From the NCBI GenBank assembly GCA_003480425.1, contig QUJA01000011.1:25931-89930 (forward strand): DNA of 64,000 nt, written 5' to 3'. Under the pieces are notes generated by a model. The model made no database searches and was not told where the DNA came from. It saw nothing but the letters and a program-made list of their open reading frames with translations. Origin of the DNA: Firmicutes bacterium AM31-12AC. Its GTDB lineage: Bacteria; Bacillota; Clostridia; Lachnospirales; Lachnospiraceae. Both the position numbers and the translations under genes were made by a program. Below, in pieces: positions 7,537-22,016 of this stretch. Each line of letters starts with the position of its first letter. Position 1 is the stretch's first letter.

Positions 7537-7565
7537 AGTATACTTCGTCTTACTTTTTCTGTCAA
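7537..7565 (-). promoter_or_regulatory. SigA-type promoter of the glycan operon
   Basis: Minus strand: TTGACA at 7560-7565, a 17-base spacer, and TATACT at 7537-7542, about 40 bases before the first GT2 gene. Both boxes are near consensus, so strong constitutive expression is expected. Confidence 0.8.
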
Positions 7566-7659: not shown

Positions 7660-7884
7660 TTATTTCTGAAGTTTATTAATCAATGCCATAATTGCCTCTG
7701 GCGAATCAAAATTTTCAGGAACAACCTCGCCTACTGGGATTGTCACATCAAATTCATCTGAGATATCCGAAATCAGATTTAAAATTTTAAGTGAATCCAA
7801 ATCTCCACTCTCCACCAAATCTGTTCTTCCTTCAAACTGTACTCCCGGTACTAAATCGCTTAAAATTTCCAATAATGTTTCCAT
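7660..7884 (-). CDS. dltC: D-alanyl carrier protein (DltC-like)
   Basis: 74 residues, the normal size of an acyl carrier protein. The LVESGDLDSLKILNLISDI segment holds the Ser (in DLDSL) that takes the 4'-phosphopantetheine arm. With dltA, dltB and dltD homologues in the same operon it is the D-alanine carrier for esterification of teichoic acid or a related polymer. It is the last gene of the operon, 51 bp after dltD, with a good AAGAAGGAG ribosome site. The family also includes other carrier proteins; the context decides the call. Confidence 0.85.
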   Translation of the reverse strand: METLLEILSDLVPGVQFEGRTDLVESGDLDSLKILNLISDISDEFDVTIPVGEVVPENFDSPEAIMALINKLQK

Positions 7885-7935: not shown

Positions 7936-8916
7936 CTAATTTAATGCTTCGTCACCAAATACAACATCACCAAACACTTTTGAAAATGCTTTGGCACTAT
8001 CACCATTCATGTGCCCATCATAATCTACATAATTTGCTAGTTCATGTCCATAACTCTTATAATATTCTCTGTTGAAGTTATAATATTCTACACCCTTTTC
8101 ACGAAAATACTCTGAAAAATAATCCCATGCATCACGATAACTTTCCTCTTCTTGAACTAGCATTGTTGCTGCTAGGGGCATTGTCGTCGCAATAAACTCA
8201 ATATCATTCTCTTTACATAATCGAATCAACTTATCCAAATATTCCATATTAGTTGCTTTCACTTCATCCTTTGAAAACAAAGTTGGTGAATATGATGGGA
8301 AATTCTCTATCGCCACCGGATATTTCTCAATAAATCCATTTTCATGATATTCCTGTGCTTGTCCTTTCAAATATGATACATCATAATTATTTGTCATTTT
8401 CTGATAAACTGTATCCTTCATTTTAGAAAGCTCATATTGCAATGAATACTCATGAAATGCAAATAAAGGTGAACGGAAATCACAATCTAACATTGTATTT
8501 GCATAATATTCTGCTTTTGTAATAGACATTGGGAATTCATGATAAAATAATAAATAATTATTTCCTTTTTCTTTTTCCGTTGTAAAATATCCCGGAGACA
8601 ATTCAAATATAATTGTTTTAGGGTGTTGTTTTTCAATAACAAGTTTTGTCAAATAGTATGCATCAACTGGATATTCTCCTCCTACACACAAATTATGTCC
8701 TGTCATTTTTGTTCCTTCTAGCATACTATCCGGATCTAAATCCGACATCCCATTCGATGTTCCTAATATAACAACATCTTTCTGCTCATTAGTAACTGTA
8801 TGAATATCATTTCTTACAAAGGTGCATGGATACAACAGGATATCCAATGCTTTTATCACCAATGCACAAATCAGCAGACATATAACTAACTTTATTCCTT
8901 TTTTAAAATTGTGCAT
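7936..8916 (-). CDS. dltD: DltD-like protein, D-alanyl transfer to envelope polymer
   Basis: 326 residues. An N-terminal membrane anchor (about residues 9-27) is followed by an extracytoplasmic SGNH-hydrolase-like domain. The nucleophile Ser sits in VILGTSNGMSDLDPDS, and a His in DYDGHMNGDSA lies near the end. It is shorter than the classic DltD of about 400 residues, so the family match is by motif and operon. The start overlaps the end of dltB by 14 bases, and AGGGGG precedes the ATG. It probably moves D-alanine from the MBOAT/carrier machinery to the final polymer outside the cell. Confidence 0.8.
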   Translation of the reverse strand: MHNFKKGIKLVICLLICALVIKALDILLYPCTFVRNDIHTVTNEQKDVVILGTSNGMSDLDPDSMLEGTKMTGHNLCVGGEYPVDAYYLTKLVIEKQHPKTIIFELSPGYFTTEKEKGNNYLLFYHEFPMSITKAEYYANTMLDCDFRSPLFAFHEYSLQYELSKMKDTVYQKMTNNYDVSYLKGQAQEYHENGFIEKYPVAIENFPSYSPTLFSKDEVKATNMEYLDKLIRLCKENDIEFIATTMPLAATMLVQEEESYRDAWDYFSEYFREKGVEYYNFNREYYKSYGHELANYVDYDGHMNGDSAKAFSKVFGDVVFGDEALN

Positions 8917-10429
8917 AGATGAACCCCCTAGCTACCGACATTGGACTAAACAACGGAATACTGATAAGCAAAAGAATACATATTAAAAACTCTAAAGCAA
9001 TTGGCGTTTTCACTGCTACTTCTTCCATATTTGTACCCTTTTCTTTTAATACACTCACAATAAACCAAATAACACATCCGATAAGTAATGTTAGTAATGC
9101 ATATGGTGTATATTCCACTCCGAGTTTCCCGGATGATATCATTAAAAATTGTGATGGCTGAAAACTCGTAACAGAATATTTCATCATTTTCAACGCTTCT
9201 CCAACCGAGCTAACACAATCGAAATATTGTCCAAGATTAAACAGTATAAACGTCCTGAGTATCATAAACAGATGATATCCCCTGCTTTGATCTTTAATAT
9301 GTAATTTTGTTTTCCATACCTTATATGTATCTGCCATAAATCCACTTGTTGCAATAATGATTCCATTATAAAATCCCCATCCTATATTGTTCCAGCTTGG
9401 GCCATGCCATAAACCAACAAGTACAAATACTATCAAATCTGAAACAGCAATCGTCACGAATCTTCCTTTTTTTCGTCCCCATTTGACTTTCGCCTTTTTT
9501 TGAAGTTTGCACATTGCTTTTGACAAGGTTAGTGGATAAAACACATAATCTTTCATCCATGTTCCAAGTGATATATGCCATCTTCTCCAAAAATCACTAA
9601 TCGAAACAGAAAACAATGGCTGACGGAAGTTTTCATCTAGTCGAATTCCAAACATCGCAGCTACACCTAATACAATATCTATCCCTCCTGCGAAATCACC
9701 ATACAGCTCTATTGTATATAGCAACACACCGAATACCGCAATTCCTGAATATTGCTCTGGATTAGAAAAAATTGCAATCCGATATACTGAAGCCCATTCT
9801 GCCACAATCATCTTTTTGAACAGTCCCCATACAATTCTTTCAGCACCATACTTTATATGATGTAACTCAAATTTATGTGAGCTTGTCAATTGGTCCGCAA
9901 GCCTTCCATATCTTCCTATTGGTCCTTGTACAAGTTGTGGGAAGAATGAAACAAATAATGCATATTTACCCAAATTTGTTTCTGCTTCTGCTCTCCCCCA
10001 ATATACATCTAACAAATATCCCAGCGTTTGGAATGTGTAATAAGAAATTCCAAGTGGTAAAATCATATGAAACAGATTGATATGACCATTTGTTATTGCA
10101 TTAATATTTAGAATCAAAAAATTGGAATATTTCAAAAATGCTAACATTCCTAAGTCCAATACTATTCCAAATATAACAATTCTTTTTTTCTTTTTTACAT
10201 CTACTTTTTCTTCTACTTGAATATTATCAATATGTTTTATCCATAAAGCACAACCATATGTCACAAGAGTTGAAAATAGTAGAAAAAATACTGCCGGTAT
10301 GCTAATTATCATATAATAACAATAACTGCATATTAATAAAACAACCCATTGTAAACGCTTTGGGACTATATAATAAATACATAGTCCCATTGCGGTAAAC
10401 AGGAAAAACAAATTCGATGTTAACGACAT
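8903..10429 (-). CDS. dltB: MBOAT-family acyltransferase (DltB-like)
   Basis: 508-residue polytopic membrane protein with about eleven hydrophobic segments. The MBOAT signature region reads YGDFAGGIDIVLGVA, then SISDFWRRWHISLG, and VLVGLWHGPSWNNIGWG with the invariant catalytic His. Among MBOATs it could be AlgI-like (O-acetylation) or DltB-like. The dltA, dltC and dltD homologues in the same operon favour DltB, which passes D-alanine across the membrane. The ATG at 10429 follows GAGGGG. Confidence 0.85.
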   Translation of the reverse strand: MSLTSNLFFLFTAMGLCIYYIVPKRLQWVVLLICSYCYYMIISIPAVFFLLFSTLVTYGCALWIKHIDNIQVEEKVDVKKKKRIVIFGIVLDLGMLAFLKYSNFLILNINAITNGHINLFHMILPLGISYYTFQTLGYLLDVYWGRAEAETNLGKYALFVSFFPQLVQGPIGRYGRLADQLTSSHKFELHHIKYGAERIVWGLFKKMIVAEWASVYRIAIFSNPEQYSGIAVFGVLLYTIELYGDFAGGIDIVLGVAAMFGIRLDENFRQPLFSVSISDFWRRWHISLGTWMKDYVFYPLTLSKAMCKLQKKAKVKWGRKKGRFVTIAVSDLIVFVLVGLWHGPSWNNIGWGFYNGIIIATSGFMADTYKVWKTKLHIKDQSRGYHLFMILRTFILFNLGQYFDCVSSVGEALKMMKYSVTSFQPSQFLMISSGKLGVEYTPYALLTLLIGCVIWFIVSVLKEKGTNMEEVAVKTPIALEFLICILLLISIPLFSPMSVARGFIYAQF

Positions 10430-10448: not shown

Positions 10449-11249
10449 TTAATATGTCAATCCATCTCCAATGCAGCCGTCATCAGAAGATGATGTGTCT
10501 GCTGATGGTGTTGGTGCTGGTGTCGGTTCTGTATATGTTTGTGAACCCCAATCTGATGATTCTGTATATGTTGATTGATTCGTTTGCTCCTGAGCTGCAG
10601 CAGCCTCTGCCTGTGCTGCGGCTTCTGCTTGAGCCTGTGCTGCGGCCTCTGCCTGTGCCTGTGCTGCGGCTTCTGCTTCCGCTTTTGCTTTTTCATCTTG
10701 CTCTTTTTGAGCTTTTGTAGCCAATTCGGCATCTAATGTACTAACCTCTGCTCCATCTTTCTCATATGTCAGATAAGCCACACCATCCTGAATTTTAATT
10801 TCTCCTTTTTCCATATCATCAAATGGAAATGCATGCAATTCAACAATTGTCTTATCTGCCAATGTTAATTGTATAGTATATTCTACCGGCAATGCTTTTC
10901 CACTTTCTGTCGCGGTTTCCTTAGCAGCTTCTTCTGATGGCTTATAATACAAAACTCTTGTCTCATCTTTCTTGTAAGTATCTGCCTCTTTTAAAAAACT
11001 ATCTGGATAATTTTCCTCTGAAGAAGATTTTACACTAACAGAAACAATATCCTGACCTGTTTCATTTTTAAGAGTTACTTTATAAGCATCTTTATCCTCT
11101 TCTCCTATTGTTTTGTATTCTTCTTTTTCTGTTTTTGTTGTAGCAGTTGTCTCTTTTTTCGTATCTGTTGTATTTTTATTTCCACATCCTGTAACTGCTG
11201 TAATTGCTAACATTCCTACTAAAAATATTGTTAATACTTTACGTTTCAT
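10449..11249 (-). CDS. Lipoprotein with Ala/Gln-rich tail inside the dlt operon
   Basis: 266 residues. A type II signal peptide ends at the lipobox AVTGC (Cys at about 22). A Thr/Lys-rich linker follows, then a globular domain (about 50-180), then a low-complexity stretch of alternating A, Q and E (about 180-225) and a short C-terminus ending CIGDGLTY. The DNA under the A/Q/E stretch is imperfectly repeated (gctgcggc-type units, about 10585-10690), so its length may vary between strains. Function is unknown. Its place between the ChW/transglutaminase gene and dltB suggests a role tied to envelope modification. Confidence 0.75.
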   Translation of the reverse strand: MKRKVLTIFLVGMLAITAVTGCGNKNTTDTKKETTATTKTEKEEYKTIGEEDKDAYKVTLKNETGQDIVSVSVKSSSEENYPDSFLKEADTYKKDETRVLYYKPSEEAAKETATESGKALPVEYTIQLTLADKTIVELHAFPFDDMEKGEIKIQDGVAYLTYEKDGAEVSTLDAELATKAQKEQDEKAKAEAEAAAQAQAEAAAQAQAEAAAQAEAAAAQEQTNQSTYTESSDWGSQTYTEPTPAPTPSADTSSSDDGCIGDGLTY

Positions 11250-11280: not shown

Positions 11281-13905
11281 TTAACTTTCATAGTGATAAT
11301 TTGTGTATACCCATGTACCGGAAGTCCTGTATCTGAACTGATATCCATTACGCCTCGTCTCATACTGAAAATCTGTATCATATACATAGGTTACTCCATT
11401 GATATCAATTTCTACCCATGCATGATCAACCATTCCACCTCCAGCTCTTGGAACATAACCATATACATATCTTGCATTATAGCCCAGTCCCTTTGCTAAC
11501 TGATAAAAAGTTGCTGCATAAGTACGACAATCTCCTATTTGCTGCTCTAATCCATACAGGGCAAACCACTGTGGATTTGTATAACCAGTTCCTGGATTAT
11601 CTCCAAGTGTACGATATTTGATATTGTTAACACACCACATAAAACAACTATACAAATTTCGTCCTGCCTGATTATATACATTTTGGATTCCATTATTAAT
11701 ACGCATCTGTTGTGGTGTCATCGTTATATAATAATTACTATTACTTCCTGGTACCATTGCTCCCTTCGGAACAATTTTCACTTGAATAGCCTGCAATTTG
11801 TTTCCAAGTTTTGTAGTTCCGGCTTCCTGACCATTCTTTGCCCAGCCAAGCCATCCATAATTTGACACATGAGTGCGGTAATAGATATCTGCATATTGTG
11901 CCAACTCACCCGTCAAACGAATTTGAACCGCTTCTGCCTGATTTTTTCCGTCTCCAGCTATTTCTCCATTATTTTTCCAGTCCATCCAGCCAACATTACT
12001 TACATGCAAACGATATTCAATTGTTCCATTAAATACATTTTTTCCCGTAGAATCAGATGTACTCATAGTCAGCTGCTGAATTGCTTTGTTTTCTCCTGTT
12101 GTTCCTGCAATCTGCCCATTTGTTTTGGTCGTCTGCCAGCCAGATTTTTCAACATTTGCCGCAAAATTAATTTCACCTATATTTTCTGTTGCCAGATAGC
12201 TCCTTGCTGTTGTATCTGGTACGTTTGTATCATTTTTTTCATAAAGTTTGATTTCAATAGCCTCTACTCCCGCATTGTAGCCGACAGTTCCAGCTGTCTC
12301 TCCATTTTTCGTCCAGCCAAGCCAGCCAAATCTTGCACTATGAACGCGATAATAGATATCATATTTTTCTTCCAGTTCACCTGACAAACGAACTTTTATG
12401 GCCTCGACTTTTTTGTTTTTCCCTGTTGTTCCGGATGTCTCTCCATCCGCAACTTCATCCTGCCAGCCAATATCCTGTACATGTGTCTGATAAATAACAG
12501 ACCCATTCAGCCCATTTTGTCTTCCCCAGTCAGTAACTTTAATGTTCAGAGCTTCTACACTCAAATTTCTTCCTGTCGTTCCGGCTGTTTTTCCATCATA
12601 CACATTTGATTGCCAACCAATATTTTGTACATGGGCTTTATAAAGAATTGCCCCTAAATTATCTTGCGAAATATAACTTCTGCTGCTTTGTTCTGGTTTA
12701 TCTGTTGCATCTTTTGCATATAATTTTACTTCAATTGCCTGTGCTCCCAAGTTAAGTCCTATAGTACCTGCCTGTTCACCATTTTTGGCCCAGCCTAACC
12801 AACCATACTCTGCTGAATGAACACGATAATAGATATCATATGCTTGTGCCAACTCTCCTGTCAGGCTTATTTTTAACGCTTCTATTTTCTTATTTCTTCC
12901 TGTTGTTCCGGCTGTACCCCAATCAGAAACTGCATTCTGCCAACCAATATCCTGTACATGGGCTTCGTAACTAATAGAGCCTGACATATTTTTTCTTCCG
13001 GCATTTGTCACTTTTAACTGAAGTGCTTCCAAATTCAGGTTTCTCCCAGTTGTCCCGGCTGTTGCTCCATCATAAACTTTATCTTGCCAACCAATGTTTT
13101 GTACATGAGTCTTATACATTAACAAACCACGTGTCTCTTCTGACAAAAAGCTGCATTCTGTCTGCGCCGGCTTGTCCTCTGCAGTTTTATTATATAATTT
13201 AATTTCAATTGCCTGTACAGCATATGCATATCCAGCAGTTCCGGCGTCTTCACCATTCTTCGCCCAGCCAAGCCAACCAACATTTGTAGCATGAACACGA
13301 TAATATATGTCATACTGTTCTTTTAAATCTCCTGTAAGATTCATTCTAATTGCTTCTATCGGAAGATTCTTTTCTTCAATACCAGCTGTTTCTCCATCTT
13401 TTACTGCGTCCTGCCAGCCAATATTTTGCACATGCGCACTGTACTCAATTCCGCCTGTTACATTTGTTTGATTATCTATTTTTATCTGCAGTGCTCTCAT
13501 TGCACGATTCTGCCCTGTCGTTCCGGCCATTTCTCCATTTTGTTTTTCTTCCTGCCAGAATCCACCATGTAAATATGCACGATATTTTAATTGAACCTGC
13601 TCGCCATTTTCTGCAACAGCCTCTGGTTCTTTCTGTATATCCTGAACAGTTGTTGGTGCTACGTTTTCTTGTACATCCTCCTGCTCTAATGTTTCCTGTT
13701 GTTTTTCCTCTTTAATTGTACTGTCTTCACTACTATTTTCAGAAGCTTGTGACTCACTTTCTCCATTATTTTCAGTCTGATCAAAAGAACCATTTTCTTG
13801 TGTTTGTACAATTTCGTTTTCCTCTGCAAGCACTGTTAATGGGCTTGACATCAACATAATAGAACTGAGTAGAAGTACTCCCACACTTTTTATATTTTTC
13901 TTCAT
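11281..13905 (-). CDS. Secreted ChW-repeat protein with C-terminal transglutaminase-like domain
   Basis: 874 residues. A signal peptide covers about residues 1-27 and an acidic, disordered stretch about 28-95. Then come twelve ChW repeats (core GW-x(3)-NG-x-x-AGT-x-G), arranged as four groups of three; the third of each group starts (D)IYYRVH and contains GWLGW. The C-terminus, from about residue 735, is a transglutaminase/protease-like fold with Cys in IGDCRTYAATF, His in DHAWVEI and Asp in YDTDF, a complete Cys-His-Asp triad. ChW repeats are thought to bind cell wall or host ligands. The enzyme may cross-link or cleave peptides at the surface. It lies 40 bp downstream of dltA, so it is expressed from the same promoter. 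Confidence 0.85.
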   Translation of the reverse strand: MKKNIKSVGVLLLSSIMLMSSPLTVLAEENEIVQTQENGSFDQTENNGESESQASENSSEDSTIKEEKQQETLEQEDVQENVAPTTVQDIQKEPEAVAENGEQVQLKYRAYLHGGFWQEEKQNGEMAGTTGQNRAMRALQIKIDNQTNVTGGIEYSAHVQNIGWQDAVKDGETAGIEEKNLPIEAIRMNLTGDLKEQYDIYYRVHATNVGWLGWAKNGEDAGTAGYAYAVQAIEIKLYNKTAEDKPAQTECSFLSEETRGLLMYKTHVQNIGWQDKVYDGATAGTTGRNLNLEALQLKVTNAGRKNMSGSISYEAHVQDIGWQNAVSDWGTAGTTGRNKKIEALKISLTGELAQAYDIYYRVHSAEYGWLGWAKNGEQAGTIGLNLGAQAIEVKLYAKDATDKPEQSSRSYISQDNLGAILYKAHVQNIGWQSNVYDGKTAGTTGRNLSVEALNIKVTDWGRQNGLNGSVIYQTHVQDIGWQDEVADGETSGTTGKNKKVEAIKVRLSGELEEKYDIYYRVHSARFGWLGWTKNGETAGTVGYNAGVEAIEIKLYEKNDTNVPDTTARSYLATENIGEINFAANVEKSGWQTTKTNGQIAGTTGENKAIQQLTMSTSDSTGKNVFNGTIEYRLHVSNVGWMDWKNNGEIAGDGKNQAEAVQIRLTGELAQYADIYYRTHVSNYGWLGWAKNGQEAGTTKLGNKLQAIQVKIVPKGAMVPGSNSNYYITMTPQQMRINNGIQNVYNQAGRNLYSCFMWCVNNIKYRTLGDNPGTGYTNPQWFALYGLEQQIGDCRTYAATFYQLAKGLGYNARYVYGYVPRAGGGMVDHAWVEIDINGVTYVYDTDFQYETRRNGYQFRYRTSGTWVYTNYHYES

Positions 13906-13944: not shown

Positions 13945-15480
13945 CTATACTAATTCTTTCAGTTTTGCCCTGTCTATTTTTCCATTCGCATTATGTGGCA
14001 TTACTTTCATATATACAACTTTTCCAGGAATCATATAATGAGGAACTCTGGTTGCCAATGTGTCTGTAATTTTTTTTGTTTCCATTTCTATCCCATCATA
14101 AAAGAATACTATTTTTTTCCTTTTCGTATTATACATACATGCACAATCACGAATTCCTTCTATTGCATTCCCGGCAGATTCAATCTCACCTAACTCAATG
14201 CGGTATCCCATATGTTTAATTTGAAAGTCTTTTCTGGAAATATAAATCAGGTTACCGGTTTCATCATATCGGACTAAATCTCCAGTATGATATATGCGTT
14301 CTGGATAACGTTGATGTAACGGATTCTGCACAAATGCCAACTTTGTTCTTTCTGGATTATTATAGTATCCTAATGCCAGACAAGAGCCTCTCATGCATAA
14401 TTCTCCAACTTCACCATACTCAACTTCTTTACCTTCTTCGCTCAAAAGAAGTGCCTGCGAATTAGCTATTGGAACACCTATTGGTAATGGCTGTCCCTCT
14501 GGCTCATTCCCTTTTCTTATATATGCCGTACACACAAACGTTTCTGTTGGTCCATACAGGTTTGCATACACAGCGTCTGGCAAATATTTGACCCAATAAT
14601 CTAATTGTTTTCTTTGTAATACCTCTCCTGCAAACATAATTTGTTTTAAATATTGAGGAACTACTACATCAAATGTCTGAAGATTTGCAACAATCGCCAT
14701 TGCGGATGGAACCCATAAAAATGTAGATATCCTTTTTTCATTCATATATTCAATTAATCGGACGGGGAATCCAAAAAAACTTTGTGGTATAATAACCATT
14801 TTAGCGCCAAAATAAATTGCCCCATAAATATCATGTATTGATACATCAAAATAAAATGGTGCTTGATTTCCAAAAACTGATGTACTATCAATTTCAAAGT
14901 TCTGCTCTAACCATTGCATATAATTTATTACAACTCTATGATTAAGTAAAACCCCCTTTGGCACACCTGTCGAACCACTTGTAAATAACACATATAACGG
15001 ATCTAGTTCTGTCATATCCATCCTTATACTTCCAAGCATATCTTTATCGATTTCCTGTTCTGATATATCTTCCCAAAGAACAATCTGACTATTTTTAGCA
15101 AAGCTTTCTGCAAGTTCTTTATGTTCTTTATCCGTAACAATAATTTTCGGCAAAAGTACATCCATGATAATTTGTATGCGTTCAATTGGCATTTTCACAT
15201 CCAACGGACAGTAAAAATTGCCACTATATAAAACACCAAAAAAAGACACGATAGCTTTTACTGACTTATCCATAAATACAGCAATAGGCTCTCTATGTCT
15301 TCCAAGTTTCATTGCCAGCGACGTACCAATTCTTTGTGCTGTTTCTTCTACCTGCTTAAATGTCATGCTGACATTTTTATCTTCATACACTTCTTTATCT
15401 GGAAAATATATTGCAGAATTTTCTAAATACTCTAATACGTTACTTGCATTTTTCTTATTTTCAAATCCAACTACTTCCAC
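13945..15480 (-). CDS. dltA: D-alanine--carrier protein ligase (DltA-like adenylating enzyme)
   Basis: An AMP-forming adenylation enzyme of 511 residues from the chosen start. It carries the P-loop LFTSGSTGVPKGV, the NLYGPTE motif, the YHTGDL motif, the core DFQIKHMGYRIE and the C-terminal Lys in NANGKIDR. It activates an amino acid, expected to be D-Ala, and loads it on the DltC-like carrier. The GTG at 15480 is preferred because GGAGG (15491-15495) lies ten bases upstream. The frame stays open to 15618, but that extension would run through the promoter and the poly-G tract, giving an implausible MPGGGYND peptide. Usual DltA length is about 500 residues, which also fits the GTG. Confidence 0.85.
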   Translation of the reverse strand: MEVVGFENKKNASNVLEYLENSAIYFPDKEVYEDKNVSMTFKQVEETAQRIGTSLAMKLGRHREPIAVFMDKSVKAIVSFFGVLYSGNFYCPLDVKMPIERIQIIMDVLLPKIIVTDKEHKELAESFAKNSQIVLWEDISEQEIDKDMLGSIRMDMTELDPLYVLFTSGSTGVPKGVLLNHRVVINYMQWLEQNFEIDSTSVFGNQAPFYFDVSIHDIYGAIYFGAKMVIIPQSFFGFPVRLIEYMNEKRISTFLWVPSAMAIVANLQTFDVVVPQYLKQIMFAGEVLQRKQLDYWVKYLPDAVYANLYGPTETFVCTAYIRKGNEPEGQPLPIGVPIANSQALLLSEEGKEVEYGEVGELCMRGSCLALGYYNNPERTKLAFVQNPLHQRYPERIYHTGDLVRYDETGNLIYISRKDFQIKHMGYRIELGEIESAGNAIEGIRDCACMYNTKRKKIVFFYDGIEMETKKITDTLATRVPHYMIPGKVVYMKVMPHNANGKIDRAKLKELV

Positions 15481-15537
15481 TGAAGTTTTTCCTCCCTCTT
15501 GTAATTTCTTGTATATAAATACAAATATACACATATC

Positions 15538-15569
15538 ATTATACCCCCCCCCCGGCATTTTTTTGTCAA
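15538..15569 (-). promoter_or_regulatory. dlt operon promoter with poly-G tract in the -35/-10 spacer
   Basis: Minus strand: TTGACA at 15564-15569 and TATAAT at 15538-15543, both exact consensus. Between them are 20 bases, of which the ten next to the -10 box are all G (C run at 15544-15553 on the plus strand). The optimal spacer is 17, so the version read here should be weak, and loss of two or three Gs should turn it up. Transcription would start about 50 bases before the GTG of dltA. This layout matches known phase-variable promoters such as Neisseria porA. Confidence 0.8.
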
Positions 15570-15739
15570 TCCCTTCTACATTAGAATTTACACCAGAAAA
15601 TTTTCCTTCTGAAAACAAAATTTAGAATTTTATTGTAAGTTCATTAAAATCTAAGTAGGTTTACTAAATAAATTATTATGTACCTGCTATTTCATGTTAT
15701 AATAAGATTCACTTATTTAATAAAGAACAGGGGTAAATT

Positions 15740-16999
15740 ATGTTTAAGAAATTTTGGTTGATAAAAGAAGATGACATTGGAAAACAAAGTGTATTTTGGA
15801 ACATGATGTCCAGCGGTTTGAACTCTATTGTATCAATGCTATTACTCTGGGTCGTAACTTTGCTGAATGGTGTATCCGATGCTGGGATATTTTCTTTGGG
15901 ATTTTCTACTTCACAGATGATGTTGACAATTGGTAATTATGGAATGCGAAACTATCAGGCAACTGATGTAACAAATAAATATTCCATAAAAGTTTATGAA
16001 GCTTCCCGAATCATAACAAATATCATTATGATGATATCTGTATTAGGCTTTGTATGGTATGAGGGTTATTATTTCGAGAAGGCACTGATTACTATTCTGC
16101 TGTGTTTACTTAAAGTTACAGATGCATTTGATGATGTTTATGGTGGATATTATCAGGTAAAAGGTCGACTGGATATTTCCGGAAAAATCATGAGTATTCG
16201 AATTGGCGCATATGTTCTTGGGTTTATACTTACCCTTATTTTTACACACAGCCTGATTTTAAGTTGTTTGATTTCCATTATAATTTCAAGTATCATATTA
16301 ATTGTACTTATTCATTCAACGAAAATTATTATTCCTTTAGAAAAGCCTTCTTTTCAATGGAATAAAATTTGGAATTTGTTAACAGAATGTTTCCCATTGT
16401 GTATTAGTGCTTTTTTACTTATTTACATGGGTAATGCACCAAAATATGCAATCGATACTTACCTTACTGCAAAAGATCAAGCTTACTACACTTATCTATT
16501 TATGCCTTGCTTTGTGACCAATTTATTTGTAGGTTTTGCTTTGCAGCCTTTATTAGTTCGTTTATCTAAATCCTGGGTTCATAAAGAATATCGCAAATTT
16601 ATAAAATTATGTGGTTTGATTTTTGCTGGAGCGTTGTTCATCTCTGCATTGATTATCATTGCCGGAGCAATCCTTGGATGTCCAATATTATCCATTGTAT
16701 TTGCTGTCTCCTTATCATCCTATACGCAAGTATTGGTGGTATTATTGATTGGCGGTGCTTTCTTTGCTTTTGCAGTTATTGAACAAGTTATATTGACTGT
16801 GATGCGCAGACAAGTATATTTATTAGTCGGATTCGGAATTGCCAGTGCTATCGCAATGCTTATCTCCGGAATTCTCGTTAAGAAATTCGCCTTATTAGGC
16901 GCTGCTTATGCATATACCATTTCTGCCGGAGCACTATTTCTTGTATTAGCATTTATGATTTTTATATTTTTATATCTTGAAAAAAAGAAAAACAAATAA
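15740..16999 (+). CDS. Wzx-like polysaccharide flippase (MATE/MOP superfamily)
   Basis: 419 residues with about twelve membrane segments and a charged LEKKKNK tail. It resembles polysaccharide flippases of the MOP superfamily in size and topology, including an N-terminal FWNMMSSGLNSIVSMLLLW segment. It would flip a lipid-linked oligosaccharide to the outer face. It is the only plus-strand gene of the envelope island and is transcribed divergently from dltA. AGGGG lies before the ATG and TATAAT is seen at about 15700. Since the adjacent operon has an ABC exporter, this flippase may serve a different glycan. Confidence 0.8.
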   Translation: MFKKFWLIKEDDIGKQSVFWNMMSSGLNSIVSMLLLWVVTLLNGVSDAGIFSLGFSTSQMMLTIGNYGMRNYQATDVTNKYSIKVYEASRIITNIIMMISVLGFVWYEGYYFEKALITILLCLLKVTDAFDDVYGGYYQVKGRLDISGKIMSIRIGAYVLGFILTLIFTHSLILSCLISIIISSIILIVLIHSTKIIIPLEKPSFQWNKIWNLLTECFPLCISAFLLIYMGNAPKYAIDTYLTAKDQAYYTYLFMPCFVTNLFVGFALQPLLVRLSKSWVHKEYRKFIKLCGLIFAGALFISALIIIAGAILGCPILSIVFAVSLSSYTQVLVVLLIGGAFFAFAVIEQVILTVMRRQVYLLVGFGIASAIAMLISGILVKKFALLGAAYAYTISAGALFLVLAFMIFIFLYLEKKKNK

Positions 17000-17044
17000 A
17001 AAATATAGCATATGTTTCTTTGTCGAACATATGCTATATTTTTT
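16998..17044. terminator. Bidirectional terminator between flippase and glucosaminidase
   Basis: A perfect stem AAAAATATAGCATATGTT (from 16998) with its complement ending at 17044, a nine-base loop, and A/T runs on both sides. It can stop the flippase transcript and the converging glucosaminidase transcript. Confidence 0.9.
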
Positions 17045-20000
17045 ATTTTTTATAAAACGCTTTTCCGATATCTTCCGGTGCTTTTCCACCTTTTTCTACT
17101 AATTGAATACGAATTGCTTCCATTTGACGTGCATATCCTTCACTTCCTGCTTTTTCTCCATTTTTTGCCCAACCGAGCCAGCCAAACTCACTGGAATGAA
17201 CTTGATAATACACATCATATTTTTCAGCCATTTCTCCCGTAAGCTCAATACAGATTGCTTCCATCTCTTTATTTCTACCTACAGTTCCACTAACAGTACC
17301 ATTTGACACGTAGCTTTGCCAACCGATATCCTGAATATGACTCTTATACTTAATTCCACCCGAATATTCCGGATATTTCAAATCTATCTGGATTGCTTCT
17401 ACTTGTTTATTTTGCCCTGTTGTTCCTGCCAATTCTCCATTCTTAACTGCTGCCTGCCATCCTATATTTTCTACATGTGTGCTATATTCTACTATTGTAT
17501 TTTTCTTTTTAAATGAACTTTGTCCATTTTCTATAGTAGGAGTTCCTTTTGGTACAATTAAAATTTGAATTGCCTCTATCTTAAGAGCATAATTCATCGT
17601 TCCGGCAGTCTCTCCATTTTTTGCCCAACCGAGCCACCCCAAATCCTGCACATGTACCCGATAATATATATCGTAATTATTTTTCTGATTTCCGGTAAGC
17701 GTCATTTCAATTGCTTCCATACGACGATTTTGTCCGGTTGTTCCTGTTATCTCTCCATCCTTATGATAATCCTGCCATCCGATATTCTCTAAATACGAAC
17801 GATATTTCACTCCCAATAAATTAGATTTTACATTCAAAATCATGGCTTCTATTTTTTTGTTCTGTCCGGTTGTTCCCGCTATCTTACTTCCCAGAACCTC
17901 GTTCTGCCATCCGACATCCTGTACATGTGCAGAATATCCAATTTTGACTGTATTAATCTGATATGGAGTCTCTGTTCCACCTGGTGCTGCTGTTCCTTTT
18001 GGCAATAATGCAATCTGAACCGCCTGCAATGCATAATTATATCCTTGTGTTCCGGCTAATTCTCCATTTTTAGCCCAATCCATCCAGCCAATATTCGTCA
18101 CATGCACCCTATAGTAAAGATCATAATTTGATGCAGCATCGCCTGTCAGTTTTAATTTAATTGCCTCTAGATTTTTTGCTTGTCCAACAGTTCCTCCTAC
18201 CTCTCCATTAGACACGCTATCCATCCAACCAATATCCTGTGCATGCACCTGGTATTCAACCCCTAAATTTGCAACACCCGAAATATTTATTTTCATTGCC
18301 TCCATTGGAAGATTTTTCCCTGTGGTTCCCATCATCTGTCCATTTTTAGCGCAATCCATCCAACCAATCTCACGTACATGTGCACTGTATTCTATTGCTC
18401 CTGCCAGTTCCGTTGGTACCGCTATTGCTCCACTACCTAATGAATTATCTGGTTTATTTTCATTTCCACCTGATTCTCCTGAGCCACCTGAATTTCCGGA
18501 ACCTGTTAAGACATTCTTCACGTACCCCGAACTAACATATGCATACATACTAGAAAAATCATAATTTCCTGCATCCGAAACAGTGGTACGATTTGTTGTT
18601 AACGCAGCATCACTTTGTACTTTATAAAAATTGCCTTGGCTTGAATCTAAAATAATAAATGCCTGATTTGAATAATTTTTTGTTGTGTGAATTACAGTAG
18701 ATGAGCCATTCGCCTCTGTCCGAACATTTAAATCTGTATGTTCATTTCCTATCACGTCTTTTATCCCTATGGTATAACGATTACTGTCTTTATTCCCATA
18801 TATTTTATCAATCATCCAGGCAACATTGGCATTCTTTTCTCCCCAGTATGGATCTGACGCATATCTTACATTCATCCCGCTTCCTTTATTACCGAGATAT
18901 CCCCCTGAATATACCCAGTTTTTAGGGTTTAGATATCTTTTTGACATATATGTCTCTGTAAATGTTTTAATACATGCATCAATACTTTCATATGCGTTTG
19001 CACTCTGTCCCGGAGCTGCATCCACAGCATTTAAGCCAAACAGATTGTTTTTCTCCTGTGCAATGCTACTTTTTCCCCACGCACTTTCATTTGCTGCAAT
19101 TCCAACTGCAATTAATGCATTTACTCCGTATGTGTTTTGATAATTTTTAAACATATCCCCTGTATTACTCATTTTATATCCAGCTGCTTTGCTATTTATA
19201 ATTTCATTTAATTGAGCTGCTGAATATACTGTTTTGCTTCGTAAAGGAAGATATTGATAATAATTATAATATGGTGAAGAACTGTTAATCGAATTTGTTC
19301 TTACTCCTGCCTTATAATCATCCAGCATATTTGAAAATCTGTCTCTTGTATAGAAATAATGTCCGTCATAACTATAATATTGTACACCTTCTGACAAATA
19401 CGATGGTGCCGGTCCGTTATCCAATGATGTGATATAATTTCCTTGTGTAATATTTGTCGTAATATTATGTATTAACCGACCTGCACTGACAGCATAATAA
19501 CTGACAGATGATGCACTGTTCACACTTACAACCTGTACATCATTTGCATCAACTAGCCCTGTAACTCCTGATAACAAAAATTTCACTTTTCCATTTTCTG
19601 TCCCAAGATATGCTGCATCAGCACCATATGCCCCACAAGTATACCCGGCGTTACCGGTTCCAACTTCGGTGTATGTTGTTACCACTGCTCCTTTTGTATT
19701 AAAGTTAACTATCTTTCCATCATTACTCAATAAATCAATCTCAAGCAGTCCCGACTCATCCGGTGCTTCCGAAACATTACCTTCTTCATCCATACTCGTT
19801 ATCGTTTCGTCTTCTCGTACTTCAAACTCTGCTGTGTTGGGTTCTCCTGAATTTGTAAATTCACCAGTAATATCTTCTGTTTCTTTTGTTGCCTCGTTTT
19901 CCGTCTTTTCCAAGCTACTATCCTCAGTTGCTTGGATTGATTCTTGATCAAAGTCAACCGCACCAACATCTATTCCACTGGCCATAACAGTTAGTATCAA

Positions 20001-20045
20001 CATACATATGCTCAACATCCAACTTATTCTTCTTTTGTGTTTCAT
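17043..20045 (-). CDS. Secreted GH73-type N-acetylglucosaminidase with nine ChW repeats
   Basis: 1000 residues. The ATG at 20045 follows GGAGGAGG. A signal peptide covers about residues 1-30 and an acidic linker about 31-95. A glucosaminidase (GH73, peptidoglycan hydrolase) domain covers about 265-410, with the catalytic Glu in IGIAANESAWGKSS or close by and NNLFGLNA. An SH3-like stretch follows (about 420-515), then a Gly/Ser linker. Nine ChW repeats (about 550-990) fall into three groups of three like those of the ChW/transglutaminase protein. It probably cleaves peptidoglycan during growth or separation, with the repeats anchoring it to the wall. Confidence 0.87.
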   Translation of the reverse strand: MKHKRRISWMLSICMLILTVMASGIDVGAVDFDQESIQATEDSSLEKTENEATKETEDITGEFTNSGEPNTAEFEVREDETITSMDEEGNVSEAPDESGLLEIDLLSNDGKIVNFNTKGAVVTTYTEVGTGNAGYTCGAYGADAAYLGTENGKVKFLLSGVTGLVDANDVQVVSVNSASSVSYYAVSAGRLIHNITTNITQGNYITSLDNGPAPSYLSEGVQYYSYDGHYFYTRDRFSNMLDDYKAGVRTNSINSSSPYYNYYQYLPLRSKTVYSAAQLNEIINSKAAGYKMSNTGDMFKNYQNTYGVNALIAVGIAANESAWGKSSIAQEKNNLFGLNAVDAAPGQSANAYESIDACIKTFTETYMSKRYLNPKNWVYSGGYLGNKGSGMNVRYASDPYWGEKNANVAWMIDKIYGNKDSNRYTIGIKDVIGNEHTDLNVRTEANGSSTVIHTTKNYSNQAFIILDSSQGNFYKVQSDAALTTNRTTVSDAGNYDFSSMYAYVSSGYVKNVLTGSGNSGGSGESGGNENKPDNSLGSGAIAVPTELAGAIEYSAHVREIGWMDCAKNGQMMGTTGKNLPMEAMKINISGVANLGVEYQVHAQDIGWMDSVSNGEVGGTVGQAKNLEAIKLKLTGDAASNYDLYYRVHVTNIGWMDWAKNGELAGTQGYNYALQAVQIALLPKGTAAPGGTETPYQINTVKIGYSAHVQDVGWQNEVLGSKIAGTTGQNKKIEAMILNVKSNLLGVKYRSYLENIGWQDYHKDGEITGTTGQNRRMEAIEMTLTGNQKNNYDIYYRVHVQDLGWLGWAKNGETAGTMNYALKIEAIQILIVPKGTPTIENGQSSFKKKNTIVEYSTHVENIGWQAAVKNGELAGTTGQNKQVEAIQIDLKYPEYSGGIKYKSHIQDIGWQSYVSNGTVSGTVGRNKEMEAICIELTGEMAEKYDVYYQVHSSEFGWLGWAKNGEKAGSEGYARQMEAIRIQLVEKGGKAPEDIGKAFYKK

Positions 20046-20077
20046 CAACTTCCTCCTCCCACTTTCCTACAATATTT

Positions 20078-20171: not shown

Positions 20172-22016
20172 CTAATTAATAGTTTTTGTCTGCCCAGTAA
20201 CTATGGTTGGGGTTCCCAACTCATCTATTACATATATATGAACATTATAATCTCCTGGATTTTCTCCATAATCTGCCACATACAAATCCGTATAATAACT
20301 TCCATCATCTAGTTGATATAATTCTACCCACTGTAAGTCACTCTGATCTGCTTCTTTCCATACTGCTGCCATAACAGACTGAATATTCCCTGGTACATTA
20401 CTTATATTTGTTACTGATATCGGTAAACTACTATAATTGTAATCATAATCCCCTATCGACAACTCTGCTGACGGAATATTTTCTTCCTGTACTGTCTGCG
20501 TTCCTATATCAGTCTCTACTTCTCGTATATCCCCCAGCTTCTCCATCATTTTTGATTTTTTCTTTAACTCTGACTCCATCTTATCGATTCCAAAACGTTC
20601 TGTTAATGTCTGAGTTGATGAAAATAAATTTGTACCCAGGCCGAGACGATTTCCATCAATTTTAACTCCCAATGCAGCCAACGTTGTCGGGAAATTATCA
20701 AATGTTGTATAACTTCTCTTCTCTGTTGTTTCAAGTTCCGCTACCGGATTAATATATGTAGTATAAACTTTTCTTGTATAATCGTCATCTACATCTTCAC
20801 AAAAATCCTTATCCATTGTTGGATGATCTCCAGCAATAACAATCGTTGTGTTTTCATAAAAATCTTGTTGTTGAATCCAGTCAACCAATTCTTTCACCTG
20901 TCTGCTCGAACATGCCATAACATTTGCATACTGATTGTCTCCAAATTCATCTGTACACAATTCACATGGGTATCCATCTTCAAAATGTGTATCTACCGTC
21001 AACATTGTAAAATTAAATGGGGTGCTTTGCTGTGATAGTTCTGTTAATTTATCTTTTGCAAAGCTAAATAACTTCTCATCTTCATATCCCCACCATACAC
21101 GATAATCCGGTGGAATCAGACCATTTTCACTTGCATAGTTATAATCATAAATATTATAATTTCCATGCTCTGTAAAATATAATCTTCTTCCTCCAAAGGT
21201 TGCATCTGAACCAATCATAAGATTCTGGCAATACCCTGCGCTCTCCAGAATATCACCTAAAGTAACTGCTCCTGCAAAAAAATGTTCCTGTGTATTCATA
21301 TCATTTCCATCAATGGAAATACTCAATGGTATACCTGACGTATGTGCAAACATAGCACCCATTGTCCAGGTTGCGCCTGTCATTGCATAACCACCATTCA
21401 GTTCTTTATCTTCCCCGGAAAAATCTTCGTTTTCCTGTGCTAACTCTGTAAGTTCCGGAATTACGTTCTTATCAAATGCACCACCATTTTCTTTGTCTGC
21501 ATATGTCATTTCCATTGATTCTAAGAAGATATAAATTAAATTTCTCTTTTGCTCTGGAAATGTCAATGCTACATCGGCCGGGTCAACATAATTATCATCA
21601 ATAAACGATGAATATGTGCTTTGTCCATCCACAAAACTTCCAACATCTAATTCATTCCATGCTCCATGCACTGAAACTCCACTTACAATTATCGGAACAA
21701 TGATAGATGCCCCCATAACAACATACCAACGTTTTTTTGTTCTCCATGCAATAAATAAAATTACGACTAATAACAACATCAAAATAGCCGGTACTGCACA
21801 TACATCCAGATATTCCTGAATCATTCCATCATTTGTTCCCTCTAATGGAGCTGTCATATGGTATACTAATTCATCCATTGTTAGATTTGTCCATGTTTTA
21901 AACATCCATTTAATACTAAAATATAACAATGTTCCTATAGTCGATAGTAATGCCCCTAAAACAGCTCCGATTATTAATAATATTTTCTTTACCTTTTCTC
22001 GAATCTCCACTTTCAT
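20172..22016 (-). CDS. LtaS-like phosphoglycerol transferase / membrane sulfatase-fold enzyme
   Basis: 614 residues. Three membrane segments lie in the first 125 residues (about 12-34, 72-88, 93-113), then a large extracellular alkaline-phosphatase-superfamily domain. Metal-site motifs are visible: IFLESMEM, the candidate nucleophile Thr in MTGATWTMGAM, VDTHFEDG, and VIAGDHPTMD. LtaS enzymes polymerise glycerol phosphate from phosphatidylglycerol onto a glycolipid. Classic LtaS has five membrane segments, so this is a relative rather than a strict orthologue. It may decorate a glycan with phosphoglycerol. The polymer it makes could be what the dlt operon D-alanylates. Confidence 0.83.
   Translation of the reverse strand: MKVEIREKVKKILLIIGAVLGALLSTIGTLLYFSIKWMFKTWTNLTMDELVYHMTAPLEGTNDGMIQEYLDVCAVPAILMLLLVVILFIAWRTKKRWYVVMGASIIVPIIVSGVSVHGAWNELDVGSFVDGQSTYSSFIDDNYVDPADVALTFPEQKRNLIYIFLESMEMTYADKENGGAFDKNVIPELTELAQENEDFSGEDKELNGGYAMTGATWTMGAMFAHTSGIPLSISIDGNDMNTQEHFFAGAVTLGDILESAGYCQNLMIGSDATFGGRRLYFTEHGNYNIYDYNYASENGLIPPDYRVWWGYEDEKLFSFAKDKLTELSQQSTPFNFTMLTVDTHFEDGYPCELCTDEFGDNQYANVMACSSRQVKELVDWIQQQDFYENTTIVIAGDHPTMDKDFCEDVDDDYTRKVYTTYINPVAELETTEKRSYTTFDNFPTTLAALGVKIDGNRLGLGTNLFSSTQTLTERFGIDKMESELKKKSKMMEKLGDIREVETDIGTQTVQEENIPSAELSIGDYDYNYSSLPISVTNISNVPGNIQSVMAAVWKEADQSDLQWVELYQLDDGSYYTDLYVADYGENPGDYNVHIYVIDELGTPTIVTGQTKTIN

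Follow-up and report, generated by a model that had tools for sequence, protein, structure and literature searches.

The ten-G homopolymer in the promoter of a dlt-like surface-modification operon is, with a probability of about two in three, a slip-prone spacer that would allow phase variation by slipped-strand mispairing, as in porA, and the same predicted design recurs in other genomes. The operon is located on the minus strand of the window, by which we mean the whole 64-kb stretch of DNA that was analysed. The promoter consists of the following elements, all taken directly from the sequence.

15564..15569, minus strand: -35 hexamer TTGACA
15554..15563, minus strand: non-G arm of the spacer, AAAAAATGCC, 10 nt
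15544..15553, minus strand: G10 homopolymer tract, adjoining the -10 box
15538..15543, minus strand: -10 hexamer TATAAT

The -35 and -10 boxes are separated by 20 nt, and the last ten bases of this spacer form an unbroken G run against the -10 box on the minus strand. The layout described in the sequence-only reading, with consensus boxes, a 20-nt spacer and ten Gs adjoining the -10 box, was borne out when the sequence was read directly, and the likeness to a slippage promoter of the porA type that had been proposed is supported by the position of the G10 tract between consensus boxes. The GTG start at 15480 is preceded by GAGGGAGG and lies 57 nt past the -10 box. The tract is the sole G or C run of at least 7 within the 64-kb window, the next being three runs of 6, and by chance a window would contain about 0.02 plus-strand C runs of at least 10. 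Because full consensus boxes flank the tract and the layout recurs in other genomes, a chance origin is implausible, and the G10 promoter layout is confirmed as real. A long spacer of the MerR type was also considered and dropped, as the G run yields no palindrome.

The operon could instead be driven by another, intergenic promoter, and slippage would then be real but irrelevant here. Minus-strand promoter-like matches were observed upstream at 15764 and 15700, each at 9/12 (among the matches listed). Matches of such quality are common, however, with 75 in a 13-kb region as compared to 56 (sd 7) in shuffles, whereas the poly-G promoter has two full-consensus boxes 57 nt before the start. We regard a second promoter as very unlikely, and the poly-G promoter is the only strong predicted promoter seen upstream of the dlt-like operon.

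Six closely spaced minus-strand genes follow the poly-G promoter (first six lines), and no minus-strand terminator-like sites were found between 15480 and 7660. The unit is bordered by a separate promoter and by a divergent gene (last two lines).

13945..15480, minus strand: DltA-like amino-acid adenylation enzyme with a GTG start (AMP-binding, 218.7 bits; TIGR01733 above cut-off)
11281..13905, minus strand: protein with 12 ChW stretches and a transglutaminase-like domain (Pfam)
10449..11249, minus strand: putative lipoprotein with a lipobox-like VTGC near the N-terminus (from sequence; no Pfam or NCBIfam family)
8903..10429, minus strand: DltB-like MBOAT acyltransferase (MBOAT, 65.5 bits, Pfam)
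7936..8916, minus strand: SGNH-like protein in the DltD position (GTSNG and DxxH-like motifs by eye)
7660..7884, minus strand: DltC-like carrier protein of 74 aa with a DSL motif
7537..7565, minus strand: separate consensus-like promoter TTGACA-17-TATACT past the carrier gene (from sequence)
15740..16999, plus strand: divergent protein, hydrophobic by eye, outside the switch unit (no Pfam or NCBIfam family)

The promoter at 7565-7537 probably belongs to the next transcription unit. The GTG and the divergent gene are separated by an intergenic region of 260 nt. Further along in the window, positions 17043-20048 encode a second large protein with ChW repeats, which also has a glucosaminidase domain (Pfam). 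Near the dlt-like operon, at 20172-22016, a sulfatase-family protein with a GBS_Bsp-like repeat is found (Pfam), which resembles phosphoglycerol transferases below the NCBIfam cut-offs.

The operon had been called a dlt operon, a name that holds for its gene composition but not for the curated DltA, DltB and DltC cut-offs or for the classical order. With the dlt operon for the D-alanylation of teichoic acids it shares, within one operon, an adenylation enzyme, an MBOAT protein, a carrier protein and an SGNH-like protein; the ChW/transglutaminase and lipoprotein genes are extra. The gene order, A-ChW-lipoprotein-B-D-C, differs from the classical dlt order. The adenylation enzyme, for which the domain searches used 13945-15483 as the query, scored below both DltA models (TIGR01734, 304.1 with a cut-off of 559.85; NF003417, 319 with a cut-off of 476), and its top solved relatives were NRPS adenylation domains, with DltA lower in the list. 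Similarly, the MBOAT protein was below TIGR04091 (161.8, cut-off 375); it aligns with the solved DltB at E 3e-26 with the WHG histidine in register. The carrier protein remained below NF003464 (34.7, cut-off 68) and TIGR01688 (26.3, cut-off 52.35). The SGNH-like protein was below DUF1574 of Pfam (24.1, cut-off 29.1), and no match to a DltD model was found in NCBIfam at E 0.01. Since DltA, DltB and DltC stay below the curated cut-offs and a DltD model match was not obtained, the operon is named dlt-like only.

The recurrence of the promoter was examined with the pattern TTGA-N8-16-G7-TATAAT, which requires that the G run adjoins the -10 box and has at least 7 Gs, shorter tracts being invisible to it. 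The pattern gave 24 matches in 17 of 397 Lachnospiraceae genomes and 29 matches in 21 of 392 Lachnospirales genomes, with 0 and 1 matches, respectively, for the reversed-pattern control. The two genome draws overlap (about 74 of the 392 are also in the first draw), and after removing the 5 common matches 48 distinct poly-G promoter sites were obtained over both. When the -35 requirement was omitted, G7-TATAAT was found at 37 sites in 30 of the 397 Lachnospiraceae genomes (reversed control 1), and TTGA was present at promoter distance in 24 of the 37. In a positional control with one locus per genome, TTGA was observed in 17 of 30 sites versus 144 of 2814 displaced windows (5.1%). Some of the 13 sites without TTGA, such as L242, L251 and L252, have weaker -35 boxes and are upstream of signal-bearing proteins.

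These controls bear on the explanation that the tract arose by chance mutation, or reflects an error of homopolymer length in the assembly, and has no role. Homopolymer lengths are indeed error-prone in assemblies, and several of the 13 sites lacking TTGA at promoter distance look coding. The near-empty reversed controls and the excess of TTGA at promoter distance argue against it, however, as do homologous promoters on independent contigs that have the tract, and we find this explanation hardly credible. The predicted poly-G spacer promoters form a family-wide promoter class in Lachnospirales.

Viral contigs were scanned with the patterns as well, which gave 2 and 63 loci, both of the 2 lying within the 63. 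A full TTGACA at 14-22 nt was observed only in L135 and L136 of these loci, and a search for variants of L136 matched only L136 itself. The viral contigs L182, L191 and L215 have a common sequence after TATAAT with tracts of 10, 11 and 13 Gs, and L168 and L196 likewise have tracts of 8 and 9 Gs; neither group has a full -35 box.

The tract was also sought at more distant relatives of the adenylation enzyme. In a family search, 158 of 397 genomes had a match at E 1e-100, with at most 50% identity over the full length, and in the genome scan the best identity was 62% among the 80 loci listed. None of these 80 loci (at most 62% identity), two of which have less than 300 nt upstream of the match, showed seven or more consecutive Gs or Cs over the 300 nt that precede it; G6 runs were present in two. 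The tract is therefore not conserved among operons of this type, and its absence there would also fit a chance run. Runs of at least 8 occur six times in the 80 listed loci, all six being G runs when read along the adenylation gene's own strand. Three G8 runs, each followed by TA, are found in one 13.5-kb locus (L049:450, 2862, 7718). A 53% identical adenylation enzyme is encoded on a contig labelled as a Methanofastidiosia archaeon (L005), a label that is likely a binning contamination. A plasmid search with the window locus gave no match.

Tract and spacer vary in length over the promoter class. Among the 48 sites, the tract length is 7-11 Gs and the spacer measures 14-20 nt, and the tracts range from 7 to 13 Gs when the sites without the TTGA requirement are included. 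For vegetative promoters in general, the G10 state with 20 nt is predicted to be weaker than a state of 17-18 nt. The earlier claim that G10 is the low state was not shown by these data: the commonest spacings were 18 and 19 nt and not 17, in a set that the G7 cut-off biases upward. In a small background of about 1.1 Mb, 9 of 24 exact TTGACA/TATAAT pairs were spaced by 17 nt, and this spacing was seen at 5 of the 48 poly-G sites (p 0.01), which is weak evidence because the pattern demands at least 7 Gs.

The count of the G run in related genomes, which had been named as a check of the slippage proposal, did reveal differences. The closest protein-database relatives of the adenylation enzyme and the ChW protein are 98% and 97% identical, respectively. 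The former, P0001, which comprises 206 member sequences and whose 98% identity applies to the adenylation enzyme, has a predicted start upstream of the promoter, and its extra N-terminal residues, LTKKCGGGGYND, read through the promoter. The decoded spacer has 7 codons or 21 nt with four Gly codons (about G12), compared to 20 nt and G10 in the window, as read from the protein and assuming that the Leu-Thr codons correspond to the -35 box. The region further upstream of P0001 has diverged from that of the window, and its source may be a sister species. The reading frame that spans the promoter was also used as a protein query to find alleles, and only the 71-aa fragment P0241 was returned, which begins at the native GTG start of the adenylation enzyme and does not cover the tract.

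Three orthologous promoters of one genus have G11, G9 or GGGAAAGGG before TATAAT, with TTGACA and 9-nt arms in place; this set came from 9 genomes searched, of which 3 had the gene, and one match spans 155 of 272 residues. Two homologous secreted genes (L257 and L259) have a tract of G10 with a spacer of 16 nt and of G12 with 19 nt, respectively; MetG of these genomes is 87 and 88% identical to that of the window, and the matched DNA starts downstream of the promoters. Paralogous lipoprotein genes have G9 with 18 nt and G10 with 20 nt. The best MetG identity among nine genomes was 87%, and a closer genus may exist; the MetG proteins of six genomes in the genus of this best match are 85-88% identical to that of the window, and a looser G6 pattern detected sites in 3 of these 6 genomes, one run being broken by a T. 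Searches within the genera of G278 (3 genomes) and of G113 (1 genome) brought no additional poly-G sites. The observed tract-length differences are between species and not within one clone.

The main rival to the slippage switch treats the G tract as a fixed element of the promoter that sets a low or regulated level, either as a rigid G-rich spacer or as a site contacted by RNA polymerase or by a regulator. The length differences between species would then be neutral and no switching would take place within a clone. This would agree with the strand specificity of the tract, as the poly-C form of the promoter was matched once and the poly-G form 20 times in the same 299 genomes, a strong bias that is not predicted from slippage alone. 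The bias may reflect the G richness of the leading strand, however, given that the six runs of at least 8 at the adenylation loci are all G on the gene's strand. A fixed element would also agree with the equal tracts in two ortholog pairs (L140 and L142, both G9; L148 and L157, both G7) and with the non-G arms, which cluster at 9 nt (22 of 48 sites) and 10 nt (8 of 48). Arm and tract length were not significantly anticorrelated (rho -0.16, p 0.30). Three copies in the genome G221 all have G7, and orthologs of L157 were found in 2 of 81 genomes including its own, the other one (L226) being without a poly-G promoter by eye. Tract lengths that range from 7 to 13, an ortholog that retains the promoter though AAA interrupts the tract, and a bias for surface genes as shown by contingency loci all speak against a fixed element, which we consider unlikely.

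The surface-gene bias was determined from the first downstream genes, which were obtained for all but three of the 48 sites. A signal-like N-terminus, defined as a hydrophobic stretch that follows a basic residue near the N-terminus, was observed in 31 of 45 first genes; among other genes at these loci it was observed in 15 of 55 (odds ratio 5.9, p 5e-5). This count had unequal length limits between the groups, and homologous sites were counted twice. When six homologous or copied sites were removed and a single limit of 120 aa was applied, the numbers were 27 of 38 versus 12 of 47 (p 3e-5). The rule is crude and overlooks at least one obvious signal peptide, L129, which is among the 14 of 45 first genes without a signal-like start by hydrophobicity. 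A lipobox-like motif was present in 11 of 45 first genes and in 4 of 55 others. The link of poly-G promoters to surface genes is supported across the family, and the connection to surface function suggested by the sequence-only reading is upheld by the operon contents and by these counts.

The Rfam scan of 16 loci showed a c-di-GMP-I riboswitch just past the promoter in three, each directly 3' of the poly-G tract promoter.

L112:1549-1615: c-di-GMP-I riboswitch (Rfam)
L132:1387-1477: c-di-GMP-I riboswitch (Rfam)
L134:1389-1477: c-di-GMP-I riboswitch (Rfam)

At such loci a stochastic promoter and a signal-sensing riboswitch leader may act in series.

In the slippage switch that we favour, replication slippage would add Gs to the tract or remove them, and the number of Gs would set the -35 to -10 distance and thereby the promoter strength, the output shifting as the distance comes closer to its best value or departs from it. 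Since slippage would change the promoter strength, the cells of one population would differ in the expression of the operon. This promoter layout also recurs in other Lachnospirales, mostly upstream of genes for secreted proteins and lipoproteins. Phase variation of the promoter is likely; we infer that the tract slips within a clone, that transcription responds and that a phenotype results.

In Neisseria meningitidis, van der Ende (1995) reportedly observed a variable spacing between the -10 and -35 boxes of porA, with a homopolymer in the spacer and an effect on expression. The window has in common with porA a homopolymer spacer promoter upstream of a surface function. The effect on expression was shown for porA and is a prediction for the window; the phylum is another one, and porA encodes a single porin while the window has an operon. 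In the related Lachnospirales sites the tract always adjoins the -10 box, as the pattern demanded. For Neisseria opc, Sarkari (1994) is said to have described a promoter homopolymer of varying size in front of a surface protein gene; the opc tract is poly-C, a form with 1 match in 299 Lachnospiraceae genomes. CwpV is switched by DNA inversion, that is by other means than a homopolymer, and is likewise from a gut species of the Clostridia. It is a phase-variable cell-wall protein of Clostridioides difficile (PMC2784873). Promoter-spacer homopolymers that vary expression are described as established for Neisseria porA and opc (PMC5084427). According to a 2025 review, multi-locus phase variation appears restricted to pathogens, maybe due to host selection or to a bias of the genome databases (PMC11868660). 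A non-exhaustive literature search, covering titles and the beginnings of abstracts, showed no report of poly-G spacer promoters in Lachnospiraceae and none of phase variation of a dlt operon. The mechanism is of a kind already described; as far as the literature searched goes, its hosts and targets here appear to be new.

Taken together, we lean towards the view that gut commensals of the Lachnospirales use dispersed poly-G promoters to vary stochastically their surface proteins, lipoproteins and a dlt-like operon, some of them with c-di-GMP riboswitches, which would amount to a promoter-level phasome so far described mainly in pathogens. As the promoter signature is computable and recurring, the question of a restriction to pathogens is directly testable on existing reads of commensals. 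If the operon alters the surface charge, as we infer, one tract would generate mixed populations whose cells differ in their contact with antimicrobial peptides, phages and the host.
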